IMG/VR virus record: IMGVR_UViG_3300037847_006528
Coordinates: 1-64,000 of that record
DNA from: a virus
Reading direction: 5' to 3' (one strand)
Length of the DNA stretch: 64,000 nucleotides
Shown: positions 14,105 through 25,849 of the stretch, piece after piece
How positions within the stretch are numbered: position 1 is the stretch's first letter
How the letters are laid out: each line of letters starts with the position of its first letter
Translations under genes and position numbers: made by a program
Notes under the pieces: model-generated
Databases searched by the model: none
Told to the model about the DNA's origin: nothing
What the model saw: only the letters and a program-made list of their open reading frames with translations

Positions 14105-14272
14105 TTAATCTTGGTTATCAAATCGACCTTCCATTTTCTTCCAAAAAACTTCTGGGCCAAGCACATTATACTGCGACTTCAATCGCTTGTAAAGGTTTTT
14201 TTGAATTGCATTGCCATTTTTTTTGTCATATCCAATCAGTTGACGGATTTTTTTAGCTACTGAACCACTCAC
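14105..14272 (-). CDS. Small basic protein, 55 aa, GTG start
   Basis: GTG at 14272 overlaps the Clp-like gene stop as GTGA, and an in-frame TGA just upstream excludes earlier starts. The product begins VSGSVAKKIRQLIGY and ends MEGRFDNQD, is basic and probably helical. It fills an otherwise empty 165-bp gap in a gapless operon, which supports it as real. No family recognised. Confidence 0.55.
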   Translation of the reverse strand: MSGSVAKKIRQLIGYDKKNGNAIQKNLYKRLKSQYNVLGPEVFWKKMEGRFDNQD

Positions 14273-16617
14273 ACAATATCATCGTTGCTCCTTTGTTTTT
14301 TATCAACAAAAAGTTCTATATTTTTATCTCCCTTTAAGGTTTTATCAGATATGTATGGAGTTATTTCTGATAATATCTTTTTATTCAAAGCTTCTGTTTT
14401 GTTTTTAGATTTGCAAATTTCCTCAGTAACCCTCTTTATGTAATCAAAATCAAAGTTTAGATAAATATCATTATCTTCTAATCTATTTTTTAATCTTTTT
14501 AATTTCATCCACAACAGTCTCCGTAGATCTTTTTCGGTGAGTTCTTTTAGGATAAAATAATCATCTATTTGTGATAAAAGCTCTGGGTGAATCATTAGAT
14601 TGTTTTTACCTTCACCTGCTGCTTGAAATCCCATAGAGGATTGACTGTTTGACAGAGAGCATGTCAAAAATATTTTGCAGTTTGAAAAATCTGCGATATC
14701 CCCATTGGTCATTTGAAATCTTCCATGCTTAAAGATTTGACTAAAAATAGCGATTGAGGAGTTATCTATCTTGTGAAAGTCATCAATAATTAAAACGCTA
14801 TTAGGGGTGATGTTTATTTTTTCACATATTGATGTATTTGTTCCCTGCGAAGAAGCTATTTTATGTGGAGCGAAATTATCGGAAAAATGCACACCACTGT
14901 AAGATAAAACATTTACGCCTCTTTTTTGAAGAGAGTCTTTTAGTAGGTCTACAAAGTAAGATTTGCCACTAAAACTAGAACCGCTAACTACAAAGCAATC
15001 AGGTGACGAAAAGTTATCAGATTTTTTTAATCCTAACCCAGAGAGAATCAGTTTTTCTTTAAGGTTATTTAAGAAGTCTCTTTGGCCAACTAGACTTTTG
15101 GATAAGCATTTAAATAACTTGTCTATAGTGTCTTTATTACTTAATGGGTTCTTCTTCTTATCAAAGAAATCTTTTAAATGTTTAAGTTTTACTATAGGTG
15201 TTTTGTCTTCAACCCCTTCTGTCCACTTCTCTAAACTAGCATTTAGCTTTTCTAGTAATTCTGCGTGATCTTTCTCAGGATCAAGCGCAGCCTTAACTGT
15301 CTCGGTCTGTATGGCTTTTATTGAAGGTGTAACGTGCCAAAAATTAACTTTAGCTTGAGCGCCACAATGATCAATTACGTCTATAGCTTTATCTGGATAA
15401 AACTTATTGGGGATATACTTTTCACAATATTCTATTATATTGTTTAAGAATCTATCACTATACTCAACTGCATGGAAGTCTTCGTAATATGATACAATAG
15501 TTGGAAGAATTTCTTCCATTTGGAATTTAGATGGTTCTTTAATTGTAACCCTCTCAAACCTCCGATCTAATGCAGTATCTTTTTTTATCGTGTTTGTGTA
15601 TTCGTTGATTGTTGTAGCACCTATGCAACTTATTGTGCCTCTAGCAAGTTCTGGTTTGAGTATATTAGAAGCTTCTAGTGAATTATTTGTCGCTCCTCCT
15701 GCTCCTATTAAAGTGTGAACTTCATCTATGAACAGAATTAAGTTTGAGTATTGTTTAGCTTCATTAACAAAGTCCTCTAATCTTTTCTCAAACTGCCCTC
15801 TATATTCAGTGCCAGCAACCATACTAGATAAACTAACAGAATATATCACTTTATTTGCTATAAGTTCTGGAGCATCTCCAGCAACTATTTTAGCCGCTAA
15901 TCCTTCTACTAGAGAAGTTTTTCCTGTTCCCGCTGGACCTACTAGTATTGCGTTCGGTTTTTTCTTTCGGCAGAGAATCGTAGCCAGTTCGTCAATTTTC
16001 CCATCGAAATCAACAATCTTATCAAACTCCTTATTTAAAGCTTTTAAGTTTAAGTTTTCTGCAAATTGACACAGAATTGGATTCTGCTCAAACATGTCTA
16101 TCCAGTGGTCTGGAGTTTCGACATCTGCTTCTAAAGGACTAAAGGTGTCTTCAAATTCAAGATCTTTTATTCCTAAGGAGCATTCTGTTATGAACCCTAA
16201 AACTGTAGCATCTGATTTATCGTCTTTTTTAGGGTAAAGCTCTTTAATTACTTTAGGAGAATGAACATTATCAAAAAAAGTCATTAAGATTACTTCTGGG
16301 GGAATATAATCTAAGTTAAAACTTTCTTCAGCTATACTTTCAGCAGTTGCTAGAAGCTTTCTGACATCTGTTTTTACAGTTCTTTTTACATTCTTATTTT
16401 CTCTTTTTTTGCTTAAGCAATGCCTAGATTCTTTTAGCCATTCTTTTGGATCTATATGAACCCTCTTGAAAATAGAAGAGCAAGAAAGACTCAAATCGCT
16501 TAAGAAGCAGTGAAAAAATAAATCAATGTCTACCCCATTCCTTTTTAAAATGACAGATAGGTCTTGAGATTTTTCTAAAACTCCCTCTATGTGGGGTGTT
16601 AAAGGAAGTCTAGTCAC
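14269..16617 (-). CDS. ClpA/ClpC-like Hsp100 AAA+ ATPase with possible ClpP loop
   Basis: 782 aa. About 1-150: Clp N-type helical domain. AAA-1: Walker A GPAGTGKT (227-234), Walker B LILFIDEV (293-300), GAGGATNNS, arginine finger DRRFERV (351-357). There is no long middle domain, so it is ClpA-like. AAA-2: Walker A GSSFSGKS (546-553) and a modified Walker B (VLIIDD, 608-613), with Asp where the catalytic Glu normally stands. Just after the sensor-1 strand (FLTCSLSN) is SSMGFQ with MGF at 662-664, the spot of the IGL/IGF/VGF loop by which ClpA, ClpX and ClpC dock to ClpP. It may use host ClpP for proteolysis or act as an unfoldase for phage complexes. It lies in the replication operon after the polymerase. 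Confidence 0.85.
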   Translation of the reverse strand: MTRLPLTPHIEGVLEKSQDLSVILKRNGVDIDLFFHCFLSDLSLSCSSIFKRVHIDPKEWLKESRHCLSKKRENKNVKRTVKTDVRKLLATAESIAEESFNLDYIPPEVILMTFFDNVHSPKVIKELYPKKDDKSDATVLGFITECSLGIKDLEFEDTFSPLEADVETPDHWIDMFEQNPILCQFAENLNLKALNKEFDKIVDFDGKIDELATILCRKKKPNAILVGPAGTGKTSLVEGLAAKIVAGDAPELIANKVIYSVSLSSMVAGTEYRGQFEKRLEDFVNEAKQYSNLILFIDEVHTLIGAGGATNNSLEASNILKPELARGTISCIGATTINEYTNTIKKDTALDRRFERVTIKEPSKFQMEEILPTIVSYYEDFHAVEYSDRFLNNIIEYCEKYIPNKFYPDKAIDVIDHCGAQAKVNFWHVTPSIKAIQTETVKAALDPEKDHAELLEKLNASLEKWTEGVEDKTPIVKLKHLKDFFDKKKNPLSNKDTIDKLFKCLSKSLVGQRDFLNNLKEKLILSGLGLKKSDNFSSPDCFVVSGSSFSGKSYFVDLLKDSLQKRGVNVLSYSGVHFSDNFAPHKIASSQGTNTSICEKINITPNSVLIIDDFHKIDNSSIAIFSQIFKHGRFQMTNGDIADFSNCKIFLTCSLSNSQSSMGFQAAGEGKNNLMIHPELLSQIDDYFILKELTEKDLRRLLWMKLKRLKNRLEDNDIYLNFDFDYIKRVTEEICKSKNKTEALNKKILSEITPYISDKTLKGDKNIELFVDKKQRSNDDIV

Positions 16618-19168
16618 TTTTTACCTCCCTCAGTTTCATGTAAATGTCGGTATCAATTGGTTTAATTGTTTCGACAAAGAAGCTATCTCTGCTTTTAGAG
16701 CCATTTACAATAATAACTTGGGTTTTTTTCAATTTATTATACTGTAGAAAATCTGTTAGTTTATTACCTCTACTTGTGTCCATGAATAAAAAGTTCTTAG
16801 TAGCAGTATTATCCGCTAAAGATATTATCATATATTTGTTACCGTTTTGAGAGGTTCTTGTAAAGAAATCTTTTACCTCTCCCGCAACTTGGAATTGTTC
16901 TCTTTCAGGTAATTCTGAAATAACCTTTAGGTCTTGAAGGTTGGGGTATCTTTCTTTGAAGCATTCTCTTAAGTCATGAGAGTAACTATAACCAAGTAGT
17001 GAGCTTTCGTATCTCCACTTGGCAAACATCTCATGTTTTCTATTTTGAGAATATATTTTTTTATACTGATCGAACTTAGTTTTAAATGTTTTAAATCTCT
17101 TTTCAGACATGATAGGCTTGTTGTCATCTCCTAAGATTTCCTTGCCTATAACTTCTGATATTGCATCCAGTATATCATATCCAAACCTCTCCCCTATCTT
17201 ACAAAAGTTTCTTTTTTCTCTGTCTGTAAGAAGGTTGAATGCTTGTGCTTCTAGGACCATGCGGGTTCTATTGGTCCCCGCATGATCCATTGTTCCAGCT
17301 TGGATTAAAGCCGCAAGCACAGAGATGTTGATACCGCACTGTCTGGCAGCTAGAAATACCTCGTATTTGTTTGAAAATTCTATCCCTCTGAACTCTACAA
17401 GGCTCTCCATTGCCTTGAGAGAGATCCCTTTGATACTATTTAATCCGTATCTAATATTTTCTCCCTCTATCTTGAAATCGAAATCTGATTTAAATAAGCA
17501 AGGAGGAAGCATCTTCATCCCGAAATCCTCTAACTCTTCATTAACGCCAGATATAGTAGTTAATGGTTCTGGATCAAACTCAGCGCACTCAAGAACAGAC
17601 AGAAAGAATTCTTTAGGATAATTATGTTTTAGGAAAACTGTTTTAGCGGCTAAATCTGCATAAGCAAAACTGTGAGATTTGTTAAAAGAATAGTGGGAGG
17701 CGGCTATCAATGAATTCCAATAAAAGTCAGCTATCTGATCAGTCAGGTCTCTAGAACGAGCGGCTTCATAAATCCTATCTTTCCACTTGGGCATTTCATC
17801 AACTTTTTTCTTGCCAACAATTCTCCTTAACACCTCCGCTTCTTCAAGGGTGAGGCCGAAAACTTTGTGAGCTATCTGCATCAATTGCTCTTGATACAAG
17901 ATAACATTTTTTGACCAAGAAAGTATCTTGTCTAACTCAGGATGTATTTCCTGCACTAATGAGTTGTTTTTATTATCTCTATATGTGTCAACAAACTCAA
18001 GTGCTGCTGGTCGAGCTAGGGCTACAACGTCAGAAAGTTCATTTAAGTCATCTGGCTTGATCTGCCTACATACCTTAAAGTTTGTTTCAGCGGATATCTG
18101 AAAAAGACCTACAGGATGTCTAAAGTCCTGCAATATATCATAAATAATTTGAGAATTAGGATCTACATCTTCAATTTTTATACCAACTTTTTCGCAGGTT
18201 TTATGAGCAATCGTTAGTGTTCTTAAGCCAAGAATGTCAAACTTAACCATTAGGTCGGCAACATCTGACATATCATAACCCGTCACTAAATCTCCGTCTT
18301 TAGTTTTTTGCAATGGGACTACGTTCTCTATTTTCTCAGAACAGATTGCTATGCCAGATGGGTGGACCCCAGTATTCTTTGGCAAGTTCTCTATTTTTAA
18401 TGCATTTTTAAAAGTCCTTTTGTGCTCTCTTGCCCATCTTTTAAATTTACCACTTTCTTCTCTAGCTTGCTCTAAGGGAAACACATTACCGTGCAGTTTA
18501 GGTATCATGTCTGATACTTGATTAGCTTGATCTTCTTTTACTTCATCAAAGTATTTCGTAGCTTCTCTTATACACAGTTTGGCGCTAAAGGTGTTAAAGG
18601 TTAGTATTTTAGCAGTCTTTCCTTCATGCTTGCGCTCAATATATTGAATGACTTTATACCTTTGCTCGTAAGAAATATCTGAATCTACATCAGGTAAAAG
18701 GCTTCCAACTAGAAACTCTTTACCTCTTTTATCAGTGACTTTCTTTGCTCTAGATTTAGACACGAATCTCTCAAAAAACAAATCGTGGGGGATTGGGTCA
18801 ATGTTTGTTACTCCGAGCAGATATAGAACAAGAGAGCCAGCAGCAGAACCACGGCCAGCACCAGTTGGAATATTATTGTCATGACAAAAATTTAAAACGT
18901 CCCAGTTAAGCAAGATATAATCTGTAAAACCAAGCTCTTCAAAAGTTTCTAACTCTTGCTTTGCTCTATCAAAATAAACTTTTTTATTTTCATATTTTGT
19001 GATACCTTTATCACGCAAACCTTTTCTGGCTAGCTCATATAGAATCTCTTTTGTAGAACTATCAGGGCCAAGCCCTATTTCTTCTAGCTTAGTAGGGTCA
19101 ACGATTGTTTTGGGAAGCTCAACTCCCGCAGGTTCGCAATCATCATATGGTGTAAAGTCTTCAAACAT
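16610..19168 (-). CDS. dnaE: DNA polymerase III alpha core without PHP domain
   Basis: 852 aa, C-family polymerase. It starts where the palm begins. Nucleotide-binding GAGRGSAAGS (103-112), catalytic Asp pair in LPDVDSD (D162, D164), third acidic residue in KFDILGLRTL, fingers region with GLTLEEAEVLRR, and the (N)KSHSFAYA motif. A helix-hairpin-helix (LAALIQAGTMDH) and a C-terminal OB-fold (VAGEVKDFFTRTS...LADNTA) follow. The N-terminal PHP domain of normal DnaE (about 270 aa) is absent and encoded by a separate gene two positions upstream. It is the replicative polymerase of the phage. It overlaps the exonuclease stop by one base. Confidence 0.93.
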   Translation of the reverse strand: MFEDFTPYDDCEPAGVELPKTIVDPTKLEEIGLGPDSSTKEILYELARKGLRDKGITKYENKKVYFDRAKQELETFEELGFTDYILLNWDVLNFCHDNNIPTGAGRGSAAGSLVLYLLGVTNIDPIPHDLFFERFVSKSRAKKVTDKRGKEFLVGSLLPDVDSDISYEQRYKVIQYIERKHEGKTAKILTFNTFSAKLCIREATKYFDEVKEDQANQVSDMIPKLHGNVFPLEQAREESGKFKRWAREHKRTFKNALKIENLPKNTGVHPSGIAICSEKIENVVPLQKTKDGDLVTGYDMSDVADLMVKFDILGLRTLTIAHKTCEKVGIKIEDVDPNSQIIYDILQDFRHPVGLFQISAETNFKVCRQIKPDDLNELSDVVALARPAALEFVDTYRDNKNNSLVQEIHPELDKILSWSKNVILYQEQLMQIAHKVFGLTLEEAEVLRRIVGKKKVDEMPKWKDRIYEAARSRDLTDQIADFYWNSLIAASHYSFNKSHSFAYADLAAKTVFLKHNYPKEFFLSVLECAEFDPEPLTTISGVNEELEDFGMKMLPPCLFKSDFDFKIEGENIRYGLNSIKGISLKAMESLVEFRGIEFSNKYEVFLAARQCGINISVLAALIQAGTMDHAGTNRTRMVLEAQAFNLLTDREKRNFCKIGERFGYDILDAISEVIGKEILGDDNKPIMSEKRFKTFKTKFDQYKKIYSQNRKHEMFAKWRYESSLLGYSYSHDLRECFKERYPNLQDLKVISELPEREQFQVAGEVKDFFTRTSQNGNKYMIISLADNTATKNFLFMDTSRGNKLTDFLQYNKLKKTQVIIVNGSKSRDSFFVETIKPIDTDIYMKLREVKSD

Positions 19169-19782
19169 TATAAATCCATGTGTTTTTTAAGCTTAAGAAA
19201 TACTTGGTAGCACATCTTAATATCGTAAAGAGCATTGTGTAGCTTGCTCTCATCAAATTCTATATCAAAAAACTTTAAAAGTTGGTTTTGAGAAACCTTC
19301 GCTTTGAGGGTTCTGTCGTTAATTATCTTATATTGCCAACTCAGCAGATTACCCTTGGGTCTTTCTAGCTCTTCTCTGTAAGCTTTACCCAAAGCTCTTG
19401 TGTCTAAAATACGAGGCAAGTAAGAATAATCTGGCTCTTGTCCCAACAACCTTTGCAACACAGCAAGCATATAAACATCGAATCCCAACAAGTTTTGCCC
19501 CACTACAATGTATTGAGGGTCGAATATATACTTTTCAAACTTGCTCCAAACTTCATCTAAAGGCTTGGCTTTTCTGTTATAAGTATCCCAATTAAACCCC
19601 GTGATCTTCTTGACCACTTCGGGGATATTTAATTCTTTGTGAATTATAAACTCGTCATGAGTTTCTAATGTTTTATTTCCCTGACAGACTATCCAAGATA
19701 GCTGCCATGTTTTAGAAGAGAATAAATTTAAACCTTCTGTTTCAGTATCGAATACTAGATATTTTTGATTACTTGGCAACAT
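19168..19782 (-). CDS. dnaQ: DnaQ-like 3'-5' proofreading exonuclease
   Basis: 204 aa, DEDDh exonuclease. ExoI: VFDTETEG (residues 10-17); ExoII: VGQNLLGFDVYML; ExoIII-epsilon: LHNALYDIKMCY with the HxAxxD spacing. It should proofread for the C-family polymerase encoded next to it. It sits between the separate PHP and polymerase genes, an order that mirrors Firmicute PolC, in which the exonuclease is inserted in the PHP domain of one polypeptide. Confidence 0.9.
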   Translation of the reverse strand: MLPSNQKYLVFDTETEGLNLFSSKTWQLSWIVCQGNKTLETHDEFIIHKELNIPEVVKKITGFNWDTYNRKAKPLDEVWSKFEKYIFDPQYIVVGQNLLGFDVYMLAVLQRLLGQEPDYSYLPRILDTRALGKAYREELERPKGNLLSWQYKIINDRTLKAKVSQNQLLKFFDIEFDESKLHNALYDIKMCYQVFLKLKKHMDL

Positions 19783-20467
19783 TTTCTAAATATGATTCGT
19801 AGCAAAATTCGTTAGAGGAAAAATCATTAAGGCGAGGGTTGCTAAAGGTAGGCACTCTGCCCTGTTTTCTGTTGCAGACAGCTTTATACATTTGGAATGC
19901 TTCAAAGTCATCCTTATTTCTATAATATATGCTTTTGCACTTTTCTGTTTTGACTTTTAATTTCTTGAGTGCTGCGCTTATCTGAAAATCAAATGGGTGG
20001 TTATTAGATTCTTCTATGTAAAAGTGATCATACTTGTCTAAAAATAGATCGCACATTCCAAAATGAAAGATGTTGTTGAATACATATGAATCGTAGAATG
20101 GAACCCCAATGCTTACATCATCAAGTTCTCCTTCTCCTAGATCTGATAAATTTAAGCACTCCCCTACACTGGTAAAACATTTGGTATAAAGTTTTCTAAC
20201 AACATGCACTCCTTTGTTGTTTTTGGGGAAAAAAATTAATTTGCTTGTCTTTTCAGTAATACTTGACTGAACAACGGGAACCTTTACTCCATAAACCATA
20301 GGGATTTCAGCGTGGAGGAACGCTTTATTAACAACCCTAAACCCGTAGAAGTTATCTTCTACTAATATCATCTTCTTGACATCTCCGCTTTGAGCAATGT
20401 CAATAAGATCCTCTACTCTGAGTAAGGATCGACCTATGCTAAACGTGCTTTTAAATAAAGGAATCAC
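19769..20467 (-). CDS. Detached PHP domain of DNA polymerase III alpha
   Basis: 232 aa. The N-terminus follows the DnaE PHP pattern: a strand with S-x-x-S at the HxHSxYS position (KSTFSIGRSLL), a helix (VEDLIDIAQSGDVKKMILVED) where DnaE has the A-x-TDH block, and IPMVYGVKVPVV matching GIKPIIGxE. The last residues (NRKQGRVPTFSNPR...ESYLENVAK) align with the DnaE stretch that ends PHP. The metal-binding His residues are replaced, so it is probably catalytically dead and structural. GTG start with AGGA directly before it. Together with the 852-aa gene it rebuilds a normal-length DnaE. Assigned by pattern; needs structural comparison. Confidence 0.68.
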   Translation of the reverse strand: MIPLFKSTFSIGRSLLRVEDLIDIAQSGDVKKMILVEDNFYGFRVVNKAFLHAEIPMVYGVKVPVVQSSITEKTSKLIFFPKNNKGVHVVRKLYTKCFTSVGECLNLSDLGEGELDDVSIGVPFYDSYVFNNIFHFGMCDLFLDKYDHFYIEESNNHPFDFQISAALKKLKVKTEKCKSIYYRNKDDFEAFQMYKAVCNRKQGRVPTFSNPRLNDFSSNEFCYESYLENVAK

Positions 20468-20476
20468 TCCTGCACT

Positions 20477-21517
20477 TTACAGAAGCTCCATTGGCTTGTC
20501 AAATGAAAAAGCAGGGCATCCTTCATATTTGACTTTTTCTATTTTCAAATCCTTGCTTTGCTTATCTTTTAGGTCTTTTTTGAAATCGGCAGATGCGACT
20601 CTAGTGCCATCCTTGTCTACTAAAGCGTAGAACTCTCTAGGGAACTTGAAAGGGCAGTGCCACATTGGGGTCCCATCTTTTTTCAGTTGTCCTGCATATT
20701 CTGCTCTACCACAAACCACCCTACCAGCAAACCCATCATCTCTACCTAGATAACCTTTATCGTAAGCTAGATTTTTAGATGCTGAAACTTCATTAAAATT
20801 ATTAATAATTTGTTGCACTTCTGTTAAGAAGTATTCGAAGCCCTCTAACTCATCTTCATCTAAAGGCTCCATTTCACAACATCCATCATTGTTGCAGTCG
20901 AACTTTACAAACAAGAACTCCATCTTTCTTCTTAGGAAGTCTGGGTATAAATGTTTTACCGCCAAACAATACATTAAATTCTGCATATTGTCGGTATACT
21001 CCTTACCAGAAAAGATTTGTTTTGATGTTTTAAAATCTCTAATAAGAGCAGTCTTTTTTCTCTTAAACAGAAAAAGCTTATCAATAAATCCTAATATGCG
21101 ATAGTTTTTGCCTTGTTCATTTACAGAAATGTCAAAATCTTTCTCGCTTATAGACTTAGTTGGCTTCCCGTCTTTGTCTCCAAAAAAATCGTAATTAAGA
21201 CCCTCTACCGTCATTTGGTTTATCAGGTCCATATTCTCAAAATCATCTATATTGTGCTTTTTAGCATATGCCTCTATCATCCTTTTGACTGGAGGTGAGG
21301 CAAAAGCGTTTTGAGTTTTAATTATACGGGTATAATGTTTTTTATGCTTAGGATTGCCCAAGTTTTCAAAAACAGCGTGACATATCGTTCCACGCAAACT
21401 TCCCTCGTTAGCTTTGTCTGGGAGCTTCAAGTGGTATTTGCACCAATACTGCCAAGAACACATTTGTAGCGTCTTTATGCGCGATGCAGAAAGAGGCTTG
21501 TTCTCAGAAGTCGTCAT
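20477..21517 (-). CDS. PD-(D/E)XK nuclease, Cas4/RecB-like
   Basis: 346 aa. N-terminal LSASRIKTLQMCSWQYWCKY is the S-x-x..C start of Cas4/AddB-type nucleases, then RGTICHAVFEN (conserved His in the RG-x-x-H-x-x-(F/L)E motif), the catalytic LIRDFKTSK (D...xK), and (Y)xxNMQNLMYCLAVK, the Q-x-x-x-Y motif. Cysteines near the N-terminus and in VVCGRAEYAG / WHCPFKF could hold an Fe-S cluster. A 5'-3' exonuclease for recombination or end processing beside the RecA-like and helicase genes is likely. Confidence 0.85.
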   Translation of the reverse strand: MTTSENKPLSASRIKTLQMCSWQYWCKYHLKLPDKANEGSLRGTICHAVFENLGNPKHKKHYTRIIKTQNAFASPPVKRMIEAYAKKHNIDDFENMDLINQMTVEGLNYDFFGDKDGKPTKSISEKDFDISVNEQGKNYRILGFIDKLFLFKRKKTALIRDFKTSKQIFSGKEYTDNMQNLMYCLAVKHLYPDFLRRKMEFLFVKFDCNNDGCCEMEPLDEDELEGFEYFLTEVQQIINNFNEVSASKNLAYDKGYLGRDDGFAGRVVCGRAEYAGQLKKDGTPMWHCPFKFPREFYALVDKDGTRVASADFKKDLKDKQSKDLKIEKVKYEGCPAFSFDKPMELL

Positions 21518-22550
21518 AATGAAATGAGTTTTTCTTTATAAGCTTCGAAAAAGAAGAAGAAAAACTTTTGTTTACACCTCGTTGATTCATATCTTTAGCA
21601 ATCTTTATCACTTTAGACATGGATTCTTGATGTTGTATATTATAGCAATCTGAAGCGTATTTTTCTATTTGATCTTTAGACATTTCCCCGAAGTCATTCT
21701 CTTCGGGTGGAATAAAGTATATTTTGTCAAAATCAATCGACTCAACCAATTTAAAAATAGATTTAATTGCTCCTTCAAACCCTCTGTTCACAGAAGACGT
21801 ATGATCATTATTGAATGACACAAAAACTTTTTTTATAGGTAATAAAGATAGCCTTGCTATAAATTTTGGAGAAATATTCAAACCAAAGGAAACAAGAACA
21901 TTTTTTATGCCGTTGTTGTATAGAGAGAGACAGTCCCCTACGGACTCCACAATGTGAACCGCTTCCTTTTCTTCTATGGCTTTTCGCACCTTATCAATAT
22001 TGTAATATGGGAAAAACCAACCTGATGATTTGCCCATGTGTAACCACTTTGGCCTGTCATCGCTAGTTACCTTTCTGCCAGAAAACCCATGTATTCTACC
22101 ATCTTTCCTGAAAATTGGGAATATCACCCTTTGATACATTTTTCCAGACATGGCCAAGCCGCACTTAAAGTCCTCAAGGGTTTCCTTGCTAATACCTTTC
22201 TCTAGGTAAAAATCGTGATGTGGTAAAAGCTTTGTTAGGACTTCAGGAGAATATGTCTTCTCTTCTTTCAATAGGTGTTTTTGTTTTATTCTTACTCCTA
22301 TATTTACACCGTTGTCCTTTAAATAATGCTTTACTGCATTGGGGTCTTTTGTGTTTAGGGTTTTTTGCAGGAGAGCTTCAAAGGGCATGAACTGAGAATC
22401 TTCTACATAGTCTTTCCAAACCCCAGTGTCCTTATAGATTTGAAGTGCTGTGGAATTGTCTCCAGCCCTATATACTGCGTTAGTTCTCCAGTATGAGCCA
22501 TGATCCTTGAGGCGATACCCAAGGTTTTCCAAGACCTCTTTGTAATCCAT
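21504..22550 (-). CDS. DnaG-type DNA primase lacking an N-terminal zinc finger
   Basis: 348 aa. The middle has the primase RNA-polymerase-domain motifs (YLEKGISKETLEDFKCGLA, RVIFPIFRKDGRIHGFSGR), then a TOPRIM fold: HIVESVGDCLSLYNNGI with the catalytic Glu, and FNND-x-S in place of the usual D-x-D. No CHC2 zinc-binding cysteines are present at the N-terminus, which instead has a Trp/Tyr-rich domain (YWRTNAVYRAGDNSTALQIY). It should prime lagging-strand synthesis with the DnaB helicase encoded just upstream. Confidence 0.87.
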   Translation of the reverse strand: MDYKEVLENLGYRLKDHGSYWRTNAVYRAGDNSTALQIYKDTGVWKDYVEDSQFMPFEALLQKTLNTKDPNAVKHYLKDNGVNIGVRIKQKHLLKEEKTYSPEVLTKLLPHHDFYLEKGISKETLEDFKCGLAMSGKMYQRVIFPIFRKDGRIHGFSGRKVTSDDRPKWLHMGKSSGWFFPYYNIDKVRKAIEEKEAVHIVESVGDCLSLYNNGIKNVLVSFGLNISPKFIARLSLLPIKKVFVSFNNDHTSSVNRGFEGAIKSIFKLVESIDFDKIYFIPPEENDFGEMSKDQIEKYASDCYNIQHQESMSKVIKIAKDMNQRGVNKSFSSSFSKLIKKNSFHYDDF

Positions 22551-24088
22551 TAATCTCTAAGGTTGATCGGTATTTCTTCTACCTCGTTTGTTCTAACTTC
22601 TATACCCTCTCCATTGAATGCATCCACCACATCTTGCAAGTCTCCACACTCAGTGATTCTAAAATTTTCGATATTTAAATTAATAAAATTTTGCTTCTTT
22701 GTTCCGTCTGGCATTTCTACTGGGTGTATCGCCCTTAATGCGCTCTTGCCTAAGTGCCTAGACTTGAGGTTTATTAGCTTATGAGTCCCGAAGTTAGAGC
22801 CTTCCTCATGGATTTCGTCTGCAACTTTTCTGCGAAGTAGAAACAAATGAGAGCAAAACTGAGTAATACCGTCAGACAAGGAAACCACGCTTTCGTCGTC
22901 TACAATTGAACCAGCATTCCTATTGTTGGTGATACCAAGCCTATTAGATTGCACAGAGGTGATCATTGATACGCAAGGCTTTCCGTCAAAAGCTAAATCG
23001 CGGTGGATTGTTTGTTTAAACTTGTGAACCATGTAGGAAACTTGTTGCCAACCGTCAACTTTTCCAATGCTGCCAAAATCACTTTTAATATAATCGAAGC
23101 TAAAAATTAGTGGGTTGCCTCTACCAATCTTTGAGAAGTAAAACCTCTTTAAGAGAGAACACATTTCATCAGGAGATAGGCCAGCCACATTCTCATAATA
23201 AAACTTCATATTTTTTATTTTTGACCAAGCAGATCTAACCTTTGCAACCACTTCGTCTACGGACCAGTCCTTGTATGCTGTTGTTCTCCACTTGCCTGTC
23301 TGCAAGAGCCAAACAGGTATGCCTGTCATAGCGGAACACTGCCTGAAAATAAGTTCTTCTTCGCTCATTTCACCGTTATCGAAGTGGAGCACAGGAACGT
23401 CATGCTCAGCAGATGCCTTTGTCGTGAAATCCATACAGAAGTTTGTTTTACCCACCCCTGAGCGAGCTACAATCACTGATATATTGCCAGCGAGTAGCAA
23501 TGACCCATACATTTCATTCATTCTAGGGTGAGGGCCAAGCATTCCGAAGTCCTCTACTGGATTATTCCCTCTTTCCTCCACAACCTCCTCCATCATTTCA
23601 AAGAGGTTGACAGGCCCAGCTTCTGTCATCTCAAAGTCTTTTATGTTTTTATTATAGAGTTGATCTGATTGCTCTATCAGTTCTCCATATTTTAAGTTGG
23701 GATCGGCACTTTTTACAAATGAGGCTACCTTCTTGCAGCTATTGTATATCTCTCTGCGAGCAGTGTATTTTTTGAGTTCTCTTACAGAGGAAATTAAAAT
23801 CTTTTCTGTAATCTTATAGAAAGCTAGCGAGAAAATATATTCTCCTATGTCGATACTGTCAGGAAAGCTTGCCTTAAGCTGTTGGATTCTTTGGACTAAA
23901 ATAGTTTCATCAATATCCTCTGCATTATTAAGAGCATTTTTTAGTAATTTAAATATTGATACATTTACTTTAGAGTCCTCTGAATAAAAATCACTTTCAT
24001 TTAGAAAACTGGATACTTCTTCCCATTTGTGCTGATGTTGCAACAATCCGCTGAGAACTTTCTTTTCTAAATCATAAGAAAATATCAT
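22550..24088 (-). CDS. dnaB: DnaB-type replicative helicase
   Basis: 512 aa. N-terminal helical DnaB_N domain (LEKKVLSGLLQHQ..., about 5-110), linker, then the RecA-like C-terminal ATPase with Walker A VIVARSGVGKTN, Walker B FSFDYI, and the later SIVDDESVVSLSDGITQFCSHLFLLRR region. Length is close to bacterial DnaB (about 470). ATG 24088 overlaps the 76-aa stop by 4 bp and the stop overlaps the primase start by one base, a coupled helicase-primase pair. Confidence 0.92.
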   Translation of the reverse strand: MIFSYDLEKKVLSGLLQHQHKWEEVSSFLNESDFYSEDSKVNVSIFKLLKNALNNAEDIDETILVQRIQQLKASFPDSIDIGEYIFSLAFYKITEKILISSVRELKKYTARREIYNSCKKVASFVKSADPNLKYGELIEQSDQLYNKNIKDFEMTEAGPVNLFEMMEEVVEERGNNPVEDFGMLGPHPRMNEMYGSLLLAGNISVIVARSGVGKTNFCMDFTTKASAEHDVPVLHFDNGEMSEEELIFRQCSAMTGIPVWLLQTGKWRTTAYKDWSVDEVVAKVRSAWSKIKNMKFYYENVAGLSPDEMCSLLKRFYFSKIGRGNPLIFSFDYIKSDFGSIGKVDGWQQVSYMVHKFKQTIHRDLAFDGKPCVSMITSVQSNRLGITNNRNAGSIVDDESVVSLSDGITQFCSHLFLLRRKVADEIHEEGSNFGTHKLINLKSRHLGKSALRAIHPVEMPDGTKKQNFINLNIENFRITECGDLQDVVDAFNGEGIEVRTNEVEEIPINLRD

Positions 24089-24315: not shown

Positions 24316-24728
24316 TTCAATAGCTTAATCAAACTTTTTGGGTATTTTTTTGAATCCAAGACATCAGACTCTAGGACTCTAATTAATTTAATTTTATTAA
24401 TTTCGCAGAAATATTCTTTCTTCTCATCTCTATGGAGTTGATGAAGGAATTTTTGGCGAGAATTAGAATGAAAAAACTGATTATATCTGTAGTGCTGATT
24501 ACCGTCCACTTCTACCGCTATTTTTTGTGTAGAGTTATAAAAATCTAAACTCATTCTAGTCCCCGCGACAGGAAACTCTTCAAAAACAACATCAGCAAAC
24601 CAATAATCTTTTAAGTGATTTTTTACGTCTTTTTGTATACCGCTTTTGCAGTCAGATTCCCAATCAATAAGATATTTGCTGACGTTTTTTATCTTCCTCT
24701 CTCGACCATTAGAGCATAAAAATATCAT
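24312..24728 (-). CDS. Vsr/DUF559-like PD-(D/E)XK endonuclease
   Basis: 138 aa. The signature is D-(x)n-VEVDGNQHY (strand with E-x-D/N-G-x-QH), then RDEKKEYFCEINKIKLIRV, the usual D-x-x-K-x-x-x-(C)-x...-g-(i)-x-(l)-IRV ending of very-short-patch-repair-like nucleases. Phages often carry such small nucleases in replication clusters, sometimes as freestanding homing endonucleases. ATGA overlaps at both ends show it is part of the operon rather than an insertion. Confidence 0.75.
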   Translation of the reverse strand: MIFLCSNGRERKIKNVSKYLIDWESDCKSGIQKDVKNHLKDYWFADVVFEEFPVAGTRMSLDFYNSTQKIAVEVDGNQHYRYNQFFHSNSRQKFLHQLHRDEKKEYFCEINKIKLIRVLESDVLDSKKYPKSLIKLLK

Positions 24729-25849
24729 TGCTTAAGAATATTCTGTTTTACAAAGTCAACGAGAAGGGAAGTTATTTTTTCATCTGACTCTAGAAACTCA
24801 TACACTGCTTTAATTCCTTGATACGAATCTTTTGTTTCGATTTTCTGTTCGTTTAAATAAGTTTTTACCTTTTCATCCAGTTTAATCCAAGCTCCAGATT
24901 TCTCTAGGTAGCCCCACATAAGTAGCATGTCAACAACTTCTCTCTCAAGCCAAATAGACCTGCCATTTTTCCTTCCGTGCTTTATTGGATAGGTTACAAT
25001 TTGACCTGTAGCCTCATTCGTTGATTTCAAGATCAGAACCTTGGCGTTATGTCCATAAATCTTGTTATCTGGCGTAATTTGCTCTGTTGGCTTCTCTAAA
25101 ATCTTGTCTCCTTTATTTTGTTTTTTAAATTGGAGAATCCAATCTGGGTAATGCAAAATTGCATTTCCACCACTACTGTCTGTTTGATTGTTTGGGTCTT
25201 GCTTAGCATACATGCTGGTAGTAATGCTTGATCTAACTTGAGAAATCATAATGCACATGTGTCCAAACTTGCTCATGCCCAAACTCACCCTCTTCAAAAA
25301 ATCAGAGGTCATTAAAGCTCCCCCTGCTACCTTTCTAGCATCAGAAGAACCTTTTTCTAAATCTTCTTTTGTAATCAAACCGTCCATGCTGTCGATTACA
25401 ATGCAGAATTTCTCTTTGTCGGGGTTGTTCTTCAGTAGCCCTCTGAGGAAATCAATCATAGTATCCATGATATGACACTCAAGAACTAGACATGTTCCCA
25501 CATCCCAATCTTCCGCTGAATGGACAAACTTAATACCCGCTCTATCTTTAATCTCTTGGCTGAGTCTTCCTTCAGCCATTACAAAAAGCCCTTTAGAATT
25601 TTCTACGGTTTTAAGCATGTTGTGCATAACATGCAGAGCTTCATTTGTTTTACCCCCTTCGTTAGCTCCAATAAACCTATGCAAGCCAGAACCAAAACCA
25701 CCGCCCAAAACGTGATCAAGAATCATAGATCCACTCGACACTAGATATGGTTCTGCCCCCTCTTCTAAATTGTAGTGGTATTCTTTGTTTGATTTGAGGA
25801 ATGCCTCTGTATAGTCCTTTGATCCGCTTTTCTTCTTCATTTTAGTCAT
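24725..25849 (-). CDS. RecA/UvsX-like recombinase
   Basis: 374 aa. Walker A in IGANEGGKTNEALH, Walker B FCIVIDSMDGLI, and the MISQVRSS strand typical of RecA family loop regions, followed by NNQTDSSGGNAILHYPDW in the L2 position. The C-terminal part is divergent from bacterial RecA. It should perform strand exchange in replication-linked recombination. ATG 25849 overlaps the zinc-ribbon gene; an ATG 9 bases later (25840) would avoid the overlap. Confidence 0.87.
   Translation of the reverse strand: MTKMKKKSGSKDYTEAFLKSNKEYHYNLEEGAEPYLVSSGSMILDHVLGGGFGSGLHRFIGANEGGKTNEALHVMHNMLKTVENSKGLFVMAEGRLSQEIKDRAGIKFVHSAEDWDVGTCLVLECHIMDTMIDFLRGLLKNNPDKEKFCIVIDSMDGLITKEDLEKGSSDARKVAGGALMTSDFLKRVSLGMSKFGHMCIMISQVRSSITTSMYAKQDPNNQTDSSGGNAILHYPDWILQFKKQNKGDKILEKPTEQITPDNKIYGHNAKVLILKSTNEATGQIVTYPIKHGRKNGRSIWLEREVVDMLLMWGYLEKSGAWIKLDEKVKTYLNEQKIETKDSYQGIKAVYEFLESDEKITSLLVDFVKQNILKQ

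Follow-up and report, generated by a model that had tools for sequence, protein, structure and literature searches.

The 64,000-nucleotide stretch of DNA analysed here (the window) is part of an IMG/VR virus record of 82,224 bases. In order of transcription, its minus strand encodes a DnaB-like replicative helicase (22550–24088; PHROG_19, E 1.4e-33), a DnaG-type primase with catalytic core and Toprim domain (21504–22550; DNAG_N, E 6.9e-8; PHROG_47, E 2.2e-23), a Cas4-like PD-(D/E)XK nuclease (20477–21517; PDDEXK_1, E 2.2e-15), a free-standing PHP protein of the DnaE type (19769–20467), a DnaQ-like DEDDh 3′-5′ exonuclease (19168–19782), a DnaE-type polymerase without PHP domain (16610–19168) and a Clp-like protein with two AAA modules (14269–16617; PHROG_4871 ATP-dependent protease, E 4e-103). 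A gene for a UvsX/RecA-like recombinase (24725–25849; PHROG_97, E 1.3e-31) is located on the same strand.

The PHP protein (PHP, 232 amino acids, GTG start), the exonuclease (Exo, 204 amino acids) and the polymerase (Pol, 852 amino acids) are referred to as the trio. There is an overlap of 14 nt between PHP and Exo, and a single base is shared by the Exo stop codon and the Pol start codon (TAATG). The nuclease gene is a conserved upstream neighbour of the trio. The Clp-like gene directly follows Pol in the clade to which the window belongs; next to the Pol genes of L062–L076, a distant clade, it was not found. The original prediction for this locus was that a DNA polymerase III alpha subunit is encoded as two proteins, PHP and polymerase, with a DEDDh exonuclease gene between them. 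The three open reading frames were confirmed at these positions, all on the minus strand, and the analyses below bear out the identity of each.

Pol is matched by the Pfam families DNA_pol3_alpha (E 4.4e-62), finger (3.2e-32) and HHH_6 (1.4e-17) and contains palm, thumb, fingers, a helix-hairpin-helix (HhH) and a C-terminal OB fold. According to the alignment, the catalytic aspartates of the window's Pol are residues 162, 164 and 311. The OB fold follows the HhH (strands 758–837) and gave weak matches to PDB OB folds, which rank after DnaE. The AlphaFold2 model (pLDDT 85.7) starts with a short disordered part followed by helices preceding the palm; no PHP barrel is present and no PHP match was obtained, as expected for a polymerase predicted to lack this domain. 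Inspection of the alignment by eye revealed no QxxLF-like beta-clamp motif between HhH and OB, and no beta clamp (PF02768) was found in ten records, which may be fragments.

Several features vary within the Pol family. In all 14 distant loci L062–L076 the second aspartate of the DxD motif has given way to asparagine (PDVDIN), with both remaining catalytic aspartates kept; this site corresponds to D403 of E. coli (own numbering). Intein-like or homing-endonuclease interruptions are found in the Pol genes of L044 (7995–8700, GAGRG|C), L158 (9372–13250) and L173 (9614–12598), the latter two near the YSFNKSHS motif. Polymerases of the trio family also carry an insertion of approximately 15 amino acids directly before the catalytic PDVDSD (window 18690–18732, about residues 146–160). 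Its site is the split point of the DnaE of Cellulophaga phage phiST (L182:43652-45229).

The profile PHROG_405, which represents phage DnaE and has 1190 positions, is matched by PHP at positions 50–273 (E 3.6e-8) and by Pol at positions 325–1083, the Pol match beginning at 325; the two proteins are therefore collinear with a single DnaE. In an alignment with 13 full-length DnaEs of bacteria and phages, PHP stops and Pol starts at adjoining positions, both within the final helical portion of the PHP domain. Profile matches and alignment both identify the two proteins as the parts of one split DnaE alpha subunit. The predicted exact coincidence of the PHP protein's end with the end of the DnaE PHP domain holds only nearly, since a shortened remnant of about 17 amino acids (MFEDFTPYDDCEPAGVE) remains in register on the N-terminus of Pol. 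No intein joining PHP to Pol was seen in a search by eye.

The sequence evidence for the 232 amino acid protein is marginal: its match to Pfam PHP (E 1.6e-4) lies below the family cut-off of 26.4 bits, which is passed by two of four relatives tested (L061 with 32.1 and L072 with 27.7 bits). A search of PDB sequences with the HMM of the PHP family gave nothing meaningful, and the relationship is visible by fold comparison only. The AlphaFold2 model, made with 28 relatives as input, has a mean pLDDT of 90.2 and a pTM of 0.88. Thus, structure prediction of this protein alone, which had been proposed as a check, yielded the PHP fold. In a Foldseek comparison, the closest PDB structure is E. coli Pol III alpha, matched in its PHP domain (E 3.6e-11, TM 0.75 by query). 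PHP domains of DnaEs range from 3.6e-11 to 1.6e-7, those of PolC from 3.6e-8 to 1.3e-7, and generic PHP enzymes follow far behind at about 7e-4. This ranking identifies the protein as specifically DnaE-type.

The metal site of active PHP nucleases is HHDHEH[C/H]DH (PMC12926913). The predicted loss of the metal-binding residues applies to the whole family: none of the nine ligand positions is kept in any of the 112 PHP sequences. These positions are now occupied by hydrophobic, basic or polar residues; among other changes, the glutamate has become R or K, the fourth histidine K and the cysteine F. At the same time, the family has acquired new invariant residues and new conserved motifs (PFYDS and ExNxHPFD). 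Where dS was measurable, the dN/dS of PHP is 0.01–0.17, which indicates strong purifying selection. Judged from these sequences, the PHP chain is without a metal site yet retained by selection. At larger distances PHP is more variable than Pol, with identities often below 50% compared to about 70%.

Exo is matched by RNase_T (E 8.6e-12) and by PHROG_192, DNA polymerase exonuclease subunit (E 1.9e-22). Residues D12, E14, D102, H182 and D187 are invariant in the alignment, a full DEDDh set, in agreement with the predicted exonuclease between PHP and Pol. Its C-terminus extends only 17 residues past the last catalytic aspartate in 105 of the 108 sequences counted, compared to 76 residues in E. 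coli DnaQ. Exo does not have the C-terminal alpha-binding tail that E. coli epsilon uses for contact with PHP, and thus any contact between Exo and PHP would be made in another way. Among four exonucleases scored with the Exo profile, a set that does not include PolC, the N-terminal exonuclease of the flavobacterial DnaE1 L194 reached 43 bits and the others 13–15 bits.

The search for the same split in related viruses was successful and revealed it in a large group of tailed phages that are uncultivated. IMG/VR searches returned 75 loci with Pol, 52 loci with PHP and at least 534 matching stretches with the PHP profile. Of 114 non-redundant loci with one or more of the genes, 107 contain all three; in these 107 the genes are located on one strand in the order PHP-Exo-Pol without exception. 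PHP and Exo are adjacent in 94 of the complete loci, Exo and Pol in 99. Four of the seven incomplete loci have one gene alone within the stretch fetched. A fused open reading frame carrying two of the three genes was not found among the 114 loci. PHP lies 3–5 kb from Exo in L048 and L073, and Exo 3.4 kb from Pol in L052, which shows that adjacency is not essential.

Ten contigs from metagenome-assembled genomes carry the trio, and several of them are labelled Flavobacteriales or Flavobacteriaceae. A tentative guess for the host is a marine flavobacterium. An ordinary full-length DnaE1 is encoded elsewhere in four of five trio-bearing genomes searched. Single-sequence tblastn with the PHP of the window and with that of L170 against 50,697 phage records gave no match, and at this sensitivity the trio is absent from the cultured phages of the collection. 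The distant PHP of L072 gave a single weak match in phage records (E 0.03), to a fecal contig. This candidate was discarded: its DnaE consists of two long open reading frames (PHP with most of Pol, then the rest), and its neighbours look bacterial. Another record, Pseudomonas phage Y1, a top match (OQ572403, L127), contains a full-length dnaE with lpxB- and rnhB-like neighbours, resembling a Pseudomonas chromosome; judged by this gene content, it looks like host contamination. Two loci, L002 and L012, have protein identities to the window of 100% for Exo and 88% for PHP; Pol is 100% identical in L002 and 88% in L012. This suggests that the three genes may be exchanged separately by recombination.

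In a maximum likelihood tree of 44 Pol cores all 26 members of the trio family form one clade with a support of 100/100. The other cores in the tree, all outside this clade, are those of six bacterial DnaE1, two DnaE2 and ten other phage DnaEs, with no PolC among them. The clade contains three deep groups, and identity to the window's Pol goes down to 38%. The single clade suggests that the split is probably single and old, and one fission in the ancestor of the clade would probably account for the data. Open reading frames that by eye resemble homing endonucleases are located in the gap between PHP and Exo in L044, L046 and L055 and in the gap between Exo and Pol in L066. Together with the HNH endonuclease gene between PHP and Pol of Arthrobacter phage Wollypog, these make invasion by homing-endonuclease-like elements a plausible origin of the break. 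Direct descent from a flavobacterial Exo-PHP-Pol fusion was also considered and is unsupported by the domain order or by the Pol tree.

The reading that we prefer for the split, its homology to DnaE, the lost metal site, the intact catalytic residues of Exo and Pol, the conservation and the selection is that the three chains are likely to be the replicase core of the phage itself, with PHP as a non-catalytic subunit or scaffold. An early, single break close to the C-terminus of the PHP domain would have divided a DnaE alpha subunit in this phage lineage, and a gene for a DnaQ-type exonuclease would have come to occupy the break. The PHP chain, its metal site gone, would persist without catalytic function, docking on Pol and holding Exo. 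Overlapping genes in the order PHP-Exo-Pol would favour coupled translation and assembly, and the helicase, primase and recombinase genes around the trio provide a supporting context. It has been reported that loss of PHP metal residues accompanies a separate proofreading exonuclease and that the role of the PHP domain is structural (PMC3666897). In isolation, PHP fragments of E. coli (residues 1–270 and 1–285) behave well and show full binding of the exonuclease (PMC3642679). The missing Exo tail, the non-adjacent genes in L048, L073 and L052 and the higher variability of PHP compared to Pol argue against such a three-chain core.

The same variability at larger distances, the new motifs and the kilobases that separate PHP in L048 and L073 would fit a PHP protein that has departed from the polymerase for a new job, for example binding of a host protein, leaving Pol to work with Exo alone or with host partners. 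We consider this unlikely, since PHP is located upstream of Exo and Pol on the same strand in every complete locus, still has the fold of DnaE PHP domains as well as their length, and has left an in-register remnant of its C-terminus on Pol. Moreover, damage to the PHP domain of E. coli alpha reduces the stability and the activity of the whole enzyme (PMC3666897).

Even less probable is a PHP chain that has remained catalytic with a changed chemistry, for instance as a pyrophosphatase or as a nuclease with a different metal site. For E. coli DnaE, a link between the PHP domain and a pyrophosphatase activity has been reported (PMC4822814), and the family has new invariant residues; against this stands the replacement of all nine canonical ligands throughout the family, with basic residues at the glutamate and the fourth histidine.

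The original prediction had also noted that the order PHP, Exo, Pol repeats the domain order of PolC and had proposed an intermediate or a convergent form. The order itself stands, and in NCBIfam Exo best matches the exonuclease of PolC (E 4e-12). The likeness to PolC is one of order only. Pol belongs to the DnaE type, with profile matches to PDB entries of E 2e-109 for DnaE and 5e-10 for PolC and structure matches (Foldseek) of 5.4e-40 and 1.4e-17, respectively. In PolC the exonuclease is inserted inside PHP and the OB fold is N-terminal (PMC3919608), whereas in the trio Exo is a separate gene after the PHP barrel, PHP and Pol are separate proteins and the OB fold of Pol is C-terminal. We therefore regard it as very improbable that the trio is a remnant or an intermediate form of PolC, or a three-chain PolC that arose by convergence. 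Chance, a sequencing or assembly error, and decay into gene fragments can be dismissed, since the trio occurs in 107 loci from separate contigs, is under strong purifying selection and has a separate gene between the two parts.

Our preferred reading, a replicase core of three chains, can be taken further. With somewhat less assurance we favour the view that the trio phages represent a widespread, hitherto undescribed class of C-family replicases whose three-chain core is obligate and where a dead PHP would serve solely as a scaffold in trans for a tail-less DEDDh exonuclease. The PHP domain has been described as strictly conserved in the single chain of C-family polymerases, though often inactive (PMC3666897, PMC12926913). 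If our view is true, the conserved duty of PHP would be structural and its covalent link to the polymerase unnecessary, contrary to the rule that PHP resides in the polymerase's own chain. Here PHP is off the polymerase and has lost its metal site, and is still retained in hundreds of phage contigs. The trio phages would thus be a natural test of the purpose of PHP: it could be omitted, restored or swapped in vitro with the polymerase unmutated.

The prediction that a three-protein replicase would be new applies in part. Fission between PHP and Pol already exists in Krampusvirus and Wollypogvirus; the trio of dead PHP, Exo and Pol is new. In the deposited annotation of the Microbacterium phages Krampus and Hiddenleaf (Krampusvirus), PHP and Pol are two "DnaE-like" genes of 345 and 767 amino acids. 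In Arthrobacter phage Wollypog they are likewise separate (308 and 739 amino acids), with a small open reading frame besides the HNH endonuclease gene between them. Unlike the trio, neither has an annotated exonuclease between PHP and Pol. The PHP metal motifs of Hiddenleaf look intact, whereas the trio PHP is devoid of ligands, and the Hiddenleaf break lies further towards the C-terminus, past the NVELP segment. In Krampus, where the two genes are gp56 and gp57, PHP may likewise still be active. Hiddenleaf Pol groups with the single-gene polymerase of Corynebacterium phage Darwin, which indicates that the Krampusvirus fission is independent. Together with these two phage groups, the trio shows that the border between PHP and Pol has been cut more than once. 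A search of the open-access literature, which covers few subscription papers and no preprints, gave no account of either the trio or the Krampusvirus split.

DnaE is also split elsewhere in the chain, in Cellulophaga phage phiST, Bacillus phage KLEB27-3 and Rossellomorea phage phiT1. Phage phiST is a marine flavobacterial phage whose DnaE is split into 525 and 673 amino acids; here the break lies in the palm just before the catalytic DxD, and one chain still combines PHP with the first part of the palm. The two phiST parts are adjacent open reading frames (L182:41629-45229) without a CDS row in the annotation table. In the group 2.2 jumbo phages, Pol III alpha is likewise split into separate proteins, but the split separates the NTP-binding from the DNA-binding part, the other Pol III domains including PHP are absent, and the proteins occur beside a family B polymerase (PMC7824862).

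Flavobacterial DnaE1 (L194 and L195, about 1460 amino acids) combines Exo, PHP and Pol in one system as the trio does, but as a single chain in the order Exo-PHP-Pol. PolC shares with the trio the linear position of the exonuclease between PHP and Pol and a related exonuclease domain; it differs as a single-chain enzyme from another branch of the C family (PMC3919608). The E. coli Pol III core resembles the trio in its inactive PHP, its separate DEDDh proofreader and its DnaE polymerase. However, alpha is one chain and epsilon binds PHP through a long C-terminal tail (PMC3642679, PMC3666897), which is absent in Exo. What is new in the trio compared to all of these is that a dead PHP is retained in trans, that an exonuclease gene lies between the two parts of DnaE, and how large and old the group is.
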